DNA of 64,000 nucleotides from Armatimonadota bacterium (lineage in GTDB: Bacteria > Armatimonadota > Fimbriimonadia > Fimbriimonadales > Fimbriimonadaceae). The stretch covers positions 1,798,001-1,862,000 of the forward strand of contig WGMG01000006.1 in assembly GCA_016125185.1 (NCBI GenBank), given 5' to 3'. A program made the position numbers and the translations under genes. Below, piece after piece: positions 18,295 through 19,710 of this stretch. Within the stretch, counting starts at the first letter, position 1. Every line of letters begins with the position of its first letter. The notes beneath the pieces are model-generated. The model did not search any database and was not told the origin of the DNA. It was given only the letters and a program-made list of their open reading frames with translations.

Positions 18295-18321
18295 AGTATG
18301 ATATACTCATTTCATACTCAT
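18295..18321. promoter_or_regulatory. Probable operator/promoter of toxin-antitoxin operon
   Basis: Inverted repeat AGTAT-GAT-ATACT (18295-18307), then a direct repeat ATACTCAT at 18303-18310 and 18314-18321. The repeats run into the ATG of the antitoxin gene and overlap a TATGAT/TATACT -10-like stretch, as expected for autoregulation by antitoxin. Confidence 0.5.
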
Positions 18322-18808
18322 GATCAAACGTCAGAACTTCAATGTCGATCCCGATCAAGAAGCGCTCTTAGAGTCGGCCAGGGTCTTCCTGAAGGCCCCG
18401 ACGATCAAAGACGCGGTTCTCCGCGCGGCCGGAATCGTCAATTCGATCGGGCGCGAGCTGGAGTCTGGTAAGCAACTGATGGTGGTCGACTCCAACGGCC
18501 AAGCCTCGCGAATTCTCATTCCCGAAATGGAAGCGGGCGGCTCAGCTTGGACCTACCTTTGCCTCCGCCCTCATCCTTGGCGCAGACAGCTCTCCATCAA
18601 AGGCACGAAGCTTCTGGCCTCGACGGTGTGGCAGGACATGACAGCCAATGGTCTCACTCCCGAGCAAGTTGCCGAGGACCTCGATTTGCCGCTTCCAGCT
18701 ATTCTCGAAGCAACTCGATACTGCGAAGCAAACAACGACCTGATCCGAATGGAAGCCGCGGAAGAAAGAAACCGCTTGGCCGACGCAGGGCTCAAGCTCG
18801 GTGCTTAG
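18320..18808 (+). CDS. DUF433-type antitoxin
   Basis: 162 residues. The C-terminal ~80 residues follow the DUF433 pattern: RPHPWRRQLSIKGTKLLASTVWQDMTANGLTPEQVAEDLDLPLPAILEATRYCEAN, a helix-turn-helix-like domain found in VapB-like antitoxins. The N-terminal part looks like a small ribbon-helix-helix-type segment (FNVDPDQEALLESARVFL). It precedes and overlaps (8 nt) a DUF5615 PIN-like gene, the classic partner. Probably autoregulates through the repeats at its start. Confidence 0.75.
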   Translation: MIKRQNFNVDPDQEALLESARVFLKAPTIKDAVLRAAGIVNSIGRELESGKQLMVVDSNGQASRILIPEMEAGGSAWTYLCLRPHPWRRQLSIKGTKLLASTVWQDMTANGLTPEQVAEDLDLPLPAILEATRYCEANNDLIRMEAAEERNRLADAGLKLGA

Positions 18809-19151
18809 GCTTCTTCTCGACGAGGACAGCAAATCGAAGACACTCGTAAGGCTCCTAACCGAAGCGGGCCACGATGTCGCGACTACCGCTGACCTGAATC
18901 TCGATGGCCAACCAGACCACGAGGTCCTCAAGGCAAGCGTGTCCGAAAATCGAGTGCTTTTGACGCGCAATTGTGGCGATTTCCTTGAACTTCACCAGCA
19001 AGATTCAAGTCATCCAGGAGTCCTGTTGGTCTTCCAAGACCCTCGATCTCCAATGAGTTTCGGCGACATCGCTCGCTCCATCGCCAATCTGGAGGCCGCC
19101 AACTGCCCTCTCGCTGAACAATGTCACGTCCTCAACGCATGGCAGTTCTGA
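18801..19151 (+). CDS. DUF5615 PIN-like toxin
   Basis: 116 residues, Mut7-C/PIN-like ribonuclease fold. LLLDEDSK at the N-terminus and LLTRNCGDFLELH in the centre carry the acidic residues expected for metal binding (D8/E9/D10, D64). The GTG start at 18801 overlaps the antitoxin stop by 8 nt. Family partners of DUF433 proteins are believed to be RNA-cleaving toxins; activity here is inferred. Confidence 0.75.
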   Translation: MLRLLLDEDSKSKTLVRLLTEAGHDVATTADLNLDGQPDHEVLKASVSENRVLLTRNCGDFLELHQQDSSHPGVLLVFQDPRSPMSFGDIARSIANLEAANCPLAEQCHVLNAWQF

Positions 19152-19158
19152 GGTGGTG

Positions 19159-19164
19159 TAGAAT
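19159..19164 (+). promoter_or_regulatory. -10 box of a probable leaderless transcript (peroxiredoxin-like gene)
   Basis: TAGAAT lies 6 nt before the ATG at 19171. A conserved promoter here argues that the TGA-interrupted gene is expressed. Confidence 0.55.
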
Positions 19165-19170
19165 GGCGCT

Positions 19171-19710
19171 ATGTCATTGGTCGGACTCATCGCCTCGACA
19201 ATCCTGCTTCGTCAGGATCCTCAGGTGGTCGACCACGGAGCCGCTTGGATCGGCAAAACCGCCAAAAGCGTCGTCGTCAAAGACGAGGACGGCAAGGACG
19301 TCGATCTATCCAAGCAATTCGGAAAAAGGCCGGTCGTGCTGGTCTTTTACCGTGGCGTGTGGTGACCCTATTGCCATCGCCAGCTCGGTGAGCTTGGCAA
19401 GTTAGAGAAGGATTTCAAAGCAAATCAGGCGATCATCTACGCCATTTCGAACGAACCCGCCGACAAACTCAAGAAGATGCGCGAGTCCGAAAAACTCGGT
19501 TCGCAATTCGTCTTCCTGTCGGACCCCGACGCAAAACTAGCCGAACTGTACGCTGGCAAGTACCCGCAAGGCTTCCTTCGCCCCGCGACCATCGTCGTCG
19601 GCAAGAAGGGCATCGTCACCTTCGCCACGTCTCTGGACGATTACAAGGTGAGACCCGCCGCCGACAAGGTGCTGTCCATCGTCAAAGAATTCGGAAAGAA
19701 GGGCAGCTAG
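19171..19710 (+). CDS. Peroxiredoxin-like selenoprotein (in-frame TGA = Sec65)
   Basis: AhpC/TSA-type thioredoxin-fold protein, 179 residues if the TGA at 19363-19365 is read as selenocysteine. The reading frame continues without break: FYRGVW-U-PYCHRQLGEL, where homologues have W-C-P-Y-C with the first cysteine catalytic. Downstream residues (AIIYAISNEPADKLKKMRE, FVFLSDPDAKLAELY, RPATIVVGKKGIV) are intact family sequence. A stem-loop follows the TGA at the right distance for a bacterial SECIS. The alternative is a nonsense mutation in a pseudogene, but the rest of the frame is undamaged and the stop hits exactly the redox residue. A short hydrophobic N-terminus may be a weak signal. Its stop overlaps the convergent TPR gene by 4 nt. 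Confidence 0.75.
19363..19400 (+). promoter_or_regulatory. Candidate bacterial SECIS element
   Basis: Begins at the TGA. Outer stem TTGCC (19371-19375) / GGCAA (19396-19400), inner stem AGCTC (19382-19386) / GAGCT (19390-19394), apical loop GGT (19387-19389) and an unpaired T at 19395. The GGT loop is 21 nt past the TGA, close to the 18-nt spacing in E. coli fdhF, which also has a loop GGU and a bulged U. Confidence 0.5.

Follow-up and report, generated by a model that had tools for sequence, protein, structure and literature searches.

Peroxiredoxin-like (Prx-like) selenoproteins with a UxxC motif have been known as predictions since 2005, from marine metagenomes and from Geobacter (PMC1088965, PMC1794560). 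The Sargasso Sea collection comprises 22 sequences with UXXC in place of TXXU (PMC1088965), the GOS Prx-like 1 group comprises 225 sequences (PMC2398784), UxxC proteins of this kind are found in Geobacter, Syntrophus and Desulfotalea (PMC1794560), and the kind is tabulated in a 2026 review (PMC13188914 Table 1). The same table includes the cd02970 peroxiredoxin-like selenoprotein, which is also of the AhpC/TSA type and has Sec at the first position; by its motif description it is set apart from the protein discussed here, having UxxS instead of UxxC. Sec-containing true peroxiredoxins (TxxU) have the fold in common with this protein, but its Sec takes the place of their Thr, three residues ahead of their Sec (UxxC). 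Armatimonadota are mentioned neither in the main text of a 2016 survey that covered over 5200 organisms nor in that of the 2026 review (PMC13188914), and a literature search of incomplete coverage for selenocysteine or selenoproteins in Armatimonadota or Fimbriimonas yielded no paper on the subject.

A peroxiredoxin-like gene with an in-frame TGA

The window, that is, the whole 64-kb stretch of Armatimonadota DNA that was analysed, contains on its forward strand a Prx-like coding sequence of 179 aa at positions 19171–19710, including the TAG stop, with a predicted Sec at residue 65. Its translation (MSLVGLIA...VLVFYRGVW*PYCHRQLGEL...GKKGS*) has a single internal stop, around which it reads ...VVLVFYRGVW*PYCHRQLGELGKL..., and which is a TGA at 19363–19365, codon 65. 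A sequence-only reading had placed this TGA exactly on the first Cys of a WCPYC motif with undamaged flanks, and had pointed, correctly, to marine metagenomes as a known source of Prx-like selenoproteins with UxxC (PMC1088965, PMC2398784). The placement is borne out by the translation, by the match of the read-through 179-aa product to PF00578 AhpC-TSA (90.7 bits, gathering threshold 26, positions 1–123 of 124) and by the residue at the TGA position, which is Cys (TGC/TGT) in all 15 Cys homologues examined. The codons UGA CCC TAT TGC (19363–19374, forward strand) thus spell a U-P-Y-C redox motif of the UxxC form, in which the UGA position is occupied by Cys in Cys homologues and by TGA in Sec homologues; Cys68, encoded at 19372–19374, is the only cysteine of the protein. 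As had also been foreseen, the gene is split in the ORF list of the window, which gives it as fragments of 64 and 77 aa.

It is very nearly certain, in our estimate, that this ORF is a functional selenoprotein gene in which UGA codon 65 is decoded as Sec; its product is predicted to be a Prx-like thiol:disulfide oxidoreductase. The gene is almost certainly intact and not broken, its UGA being read as selenocysteine in the redox active site. This reading, which the sequence-only reading had proposed, is supported by the Sec machinery of the genome, the Cys/Sec exchange at the site in relatives, selection on both halves of the gene, a covarying SECIS hairpin and the predicted fold, from which we infer the actual insertion of Sec at residue 65. 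Likened by description and not by alignment, the gene shares with the known Prx-like UxxC selenoproteins the PF00578 domain, the Sec-first UxxC motif, a Sec-utilizing bacterial host and a SECIS directly downstream, and differs in that its host belongs to Armatimonadota. It is a well-supported addition to the known kind; what is new is that it occurs in this phylum, that the Sec/Cys switch is resolved by lineage and that the SECIS covaries. The analysis rescues a gene liable to be split or declared broken in annotation and extends a known selenoprotein family to a little-studied phylum.

An NCBIfam search with the window protein gave sub-threshold matches only, the best being the SelL-related redox protein NF040769 at 44.3 bits; this is far below the cut-off of 120, and membership in that family was rejected. 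A crude scan of the 64-kb window for other TGA codons in a UxxC/CxxU context, judged by eye, revealed no protein-like candidate.

Fold, active site and leader

The AlphaFold2 model has a peroxiredoxin/thioredoxin fold (pLDDT 80.7) in which residue 65 starts the helix 66–76. The best matches among solved structures are peroxiredoxins of the Bcp/PrxQ and AhpE types (TM about 0.7, 21–28% identity), with Bcp4 (3hjp) as the top PDB match. These peroxidases, together with membership in the AhpC/TSA family, would suit a true selenoprotein that acts as a genuine peroxidase and not as a disulfide oxidoreductase. Such a function is possible but rather unlikely, since the sequence FYRGVWUPYC departs from the classical peroxiredoxin pattern PxxxT/SxxC(U): when the sequence is aligned with that of Bcp1 (3drn), Sec lines up with the Thr of the Prx signature, and it is Cys68 that occupies the peroxidatic site. 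Moreover, the UxxC motif is as in thioredoxin-like/ResA proteins, and the UxxC type is set apart from TxxU Prx in the literature (PMC1088965). Given this placement of Sec and Cys68, a thioredoxin-type active site (CxxC/UxxC) built on a Prx scaffold is predicted; as the protein has no cysteine other than Cys68, U65 and C68 would be its sole redox pair.

For the disulfide oxidoreductase the following course can be proposed. The SECIS hairpin would recruit SelB–tRNA-Sec, UGA codon 65 would be decoded as Sec, and the UPYC active site would lie at the N-terminus of helix 1. The selenolate of U65 would attack a substrate disulfide or hydroperoxide, Cys68 would resolve the intermediate as a selenenylsulfide, and an external thiol reductant would then reduce the latter, both the substrate and the reductant of the Prx-like selenoprotein being putative.

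On inspection of the sequence, the N-terminus encoded at 19171–19222 (forward strand) is hydrophobic (MSLVGLIASTILLRQDP) and probably constitutes a short signal peptide; pLDDT is low for residues 1–18. Since similar leaders are present in relatives, a hydrophobic N-terminus in G016 and a lipoprotein-like one (LLLGPVGC) in G058, the Prx-like selenoprotein is probably exported.

Sec/Cys exchange, selection and the SECIS hairpin

The closest homologue within the order, from the metagenome-assembled genome G019 (contig JANYCU010000048.1), is 73% identical and has TGA CCC TAT TGC at the site, while the homologue from G058, 41% identical, has TGA CCT CAC TGC; in both the TGA is the lone one, and the scattered frameshifts and stops that would mark a decaying gene were not found in these relatives. 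The homologue from G016, a 98% complete genome of the same genus, is 45% identical and reads TGC CCG TAT TGC. All four Sec parts are present in the host genome (G000), G019 and G058, and none of SelA, SelB, SelD and tRNA-Sec in G016; the proposed alignment of Cys and Sec homologues shows TGA kept in the 73% and 41% relatives and TGC in the Sec-less genome. Elsewhere in the phylum, in other families, the TGA form was found in G165, G171, G131, G167, G118, G208, G246 and G119, with SelB present in G165, G171, G131, G167, G208, G246 and G119. In G118 (72% complete) tRNA-Sec was found and SelB was not, and in G165 (73% complete) SelB is present and tRNA-Sec was not found. Cys forms occur in G128 and G129, both without SelB; G128 gives a weak tRNA-Sec match of 55.5 bits. 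The gene neighbourhood differs between the host and G019, so the gene is not kept within a conserved block. The searched viral contigs contained no relative of the gene, and the searched plasmids only distant Prx-like proteins, all below 60% identity.

Some more distant relatives are also worth mentioning. L044 (G036:C4, about 283210), an AhpC/TSA homologue from a Sec-positive genome, has TGA at the same site (FYRGVW*SFCHRQL) and is a candidate for a second subfamily with USFC; its hairpin is marginal (-5.5 kcal/mol). In L085 (G246:C7:152099-152575), a larger protein, HEAT-like repeats precede a C-terminal Prx-like domain that reads FQLADW*PVCNRQL; its TGA is followed 21 nt downstream by a perfect 8-bp hairpin with a GUC loop. 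L089 (G195) has the same layout with Cys, making another Sec/Cys pair.

Between the window and G019, dN is 0.17 and dS 2.8 on the 5' side of the TGA, and dN is 0.15 with saturated dS on the 3' side (overall dN about 0.16, synonymous sites saturated). Judged from these rates, purifying selection acts on both halves flanking the TGA, which is not what a dead 3' part would show. Within the 13 codons after the TGA the exact codon is kept at 10 of 13 conserved residues versus 37 of 101 elsewhere (Fisher p 0.007), and when every 13-codon segment was scanned, the best proved to be the one beginning at the TGA itself (permutation p 0.04). This codon conservation suggests a constraint on the RNA, beyond that on the protein, just after the TGA; in the comparison with G019 synonymous sites are conserved in the hairpin stretch and saturated elsewhere.

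The predicted bacterial SECIS hairpin, GCCAGCUC-GGU-GAGC(U)UGGC, is located at 19379–19398 (forward strand), with its GGU loop at 19387–19389, 21 nt after the UGA. Its stem, GCCAGCUC-GGU-GAGCUUGGC, has 8 bp, starts 13 nt after the UGA and has a predicted energy of -9.6 kcal/mol. The hairpin conforms to the published bSECIS model, which comprises a loop of 3–9 nt with G in the first two positions, a stem of 4–16 bp, a location 16–37 nt after the UGA and an energy of at most -7.5 kcal/mol (PMC13188914 Fig. 2). In the hairpin of G058, GCCAGUUC-GGU-GAACUGGC, one C-G pair is replaced by U-A. Across five homologues in the GGU register four of the eight pairs show changes on both sides, with 100% pairing retained; the covariation score is 0.55 versus 0.24 for shuffled sequences, and in cells paired and covariation score the structure beats 500 of 500 shuffles and every slid control. 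For this count the bulged U of two sequences, which is present in the hairpin of the window and G019 and absent from the other homologues, was removed by hand. In a second group within Armatimonadota (G171, G131, G118, G208, G119) the stem is of 7 bp and the loop, AGUU, lies at 25 nt; four pairs are compensatory here too.

The bSECIS model is satisfied by 11 of the 12 TGA homologues versus 2 of the 15 Cys homologues (Fisher p 7e-5), and the 12 TGA homologues differ from random protein-preserving synonymous recodings with a combined p of 9e-6, both values being optimistic because the sequences are related. Taken alone the window hairpin is mildly unusual, 1.5% of protein-preserving recodings folding equally well. 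An alternative fold of the same stretch has a lower predicted energy in the window (-14.1 kcal/mol); since neither G019 nor G058 has it as its predicted minimum, it was taken as incidental. Longer folds (76 nt) around the UGA showed no unusual stability, and the SECIS was therefore assessed against the published model and by conservation and covariation. The locus can be considered an evolutionarily resolved case in which Sec or Cys is used in step with the Sec machinery, while the SECIS hairpin comes and goes with the UGA.

A pseudogene, in which the TGA would be a nonsense mutation that recently arose in a Cys gene, is what ordinary annotation into 64- and 77-aa fragments amounts to, its sole support being the in-frame stop itself. 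It is refuted in the main by the purifying selection 3' of the stop and the fact that several lineages conserve the 3' part; the same TGA recurs in the 73% and 41% relatives and in other families of the phylum, the gene is otherwise undamaged and the SECIS covaries, which makes this explanation extremely improbable. A sequencing error of TGC/TGT, no more credible and with nothing specific in its favour, is refuted by the presence of TGA at this codon in independent assemblies, including JANYCU010000048.1.

Sec machinery of the host and gene surroundings

In the host genome (4.52 Mb, 13 contigs, 96% complete) the whole set that had been named for a check, selA, selB, selD and the selC tRNA, was found, so Sec machinery is not lacking. 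The tRNA-Sec is located at C1:275717-275806 (72.8 bits, anticodon TCA by ARAGORN), SelA is present, and SelB scores 346.7 bits against a cut-off of 242. SelD, at G000:C4:76370-77287 on the minus strand (L064, minus strand 302-1291), reads MRLTHLVACAGUAAKLG with its own Sec-UGA, one in-frame UGA at the Sec site; in most SelD-bearing genomes of the order SelD is likewise itself a selenoprotein.

This dedicated machinery also argues against a genome-wide reassignment of UGA, e.g., to Trp, or its read-through by a near-cognate tRNA. A stop inside the gene occurs in only one of the 24 AhpC-TSA matches of the genome, the ORF at 19171–19710, the other 23 having no internal TGA; many window ORFs of recognisable families terminate normally at TGA, and the residue at the site exchanges with Cys only. 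Nothing speaks for either kind of non-Sec decoding, to which we give hardly any credence.

Among 113 genomes of the order about half have each of SelA, SelB, SelD and tRNA-Sec, so that more hidden selenoproteins can be expected there. In the genus of the window all four are kept in five of 20 genomes (G000, G015, G019, G020, G032), which suggests that the others lost the Sec trait; G025 has SelD without SelA, SelB or tRNA-Sec. When formate dehydrogenase alpha was sought as a further selenoprotein in the host genome, only weak matches below the cut-off were obtained, among them G000:C6:1496362-1497573 with 82 bits versus a cut-off of 666. With the match so far below the cut-off, the usual main Sec enzyme seems to be absent from this Sec-using genome. 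A broader picture, which we offer as speculative and probably not correct in full, is that in the host mainly SelD and a single exported Prx-like UxxC enzyme keep the Sec system in place, the latter belonging to a family that would extend across the phylum with its SECIS in one of two positions (a GGU loop at 21 nt or an AGUU loop at 25 nt) and would switch from Sec to Cys or back with the loss of the Sec system. If true, the two positions and the switching would provide a natural test of SECIS turnover.

Upstream of the gene, sequence comparison weakly indicates a -10-like element, TAGAAT, at 19159–19164 (forward strand), ending 6 nt before the ATG, and TAGACT is present at the equivalent place in G019. 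Leaderless transcription of the Prx-like gene is possible on this basis; TANANT starting 12–13 nt upstream is found in 5 of the 52 window ATG ORFs of at least 200 aa and is not strongly enriched. Just upstream, two overlapping ORFs occupy 18320–19151; the first has no Pfam match and the second is a DUF5615 protein (PF18480, 59.5 bits), and by analogy the two resemble a small toxin-antitoxin pair.
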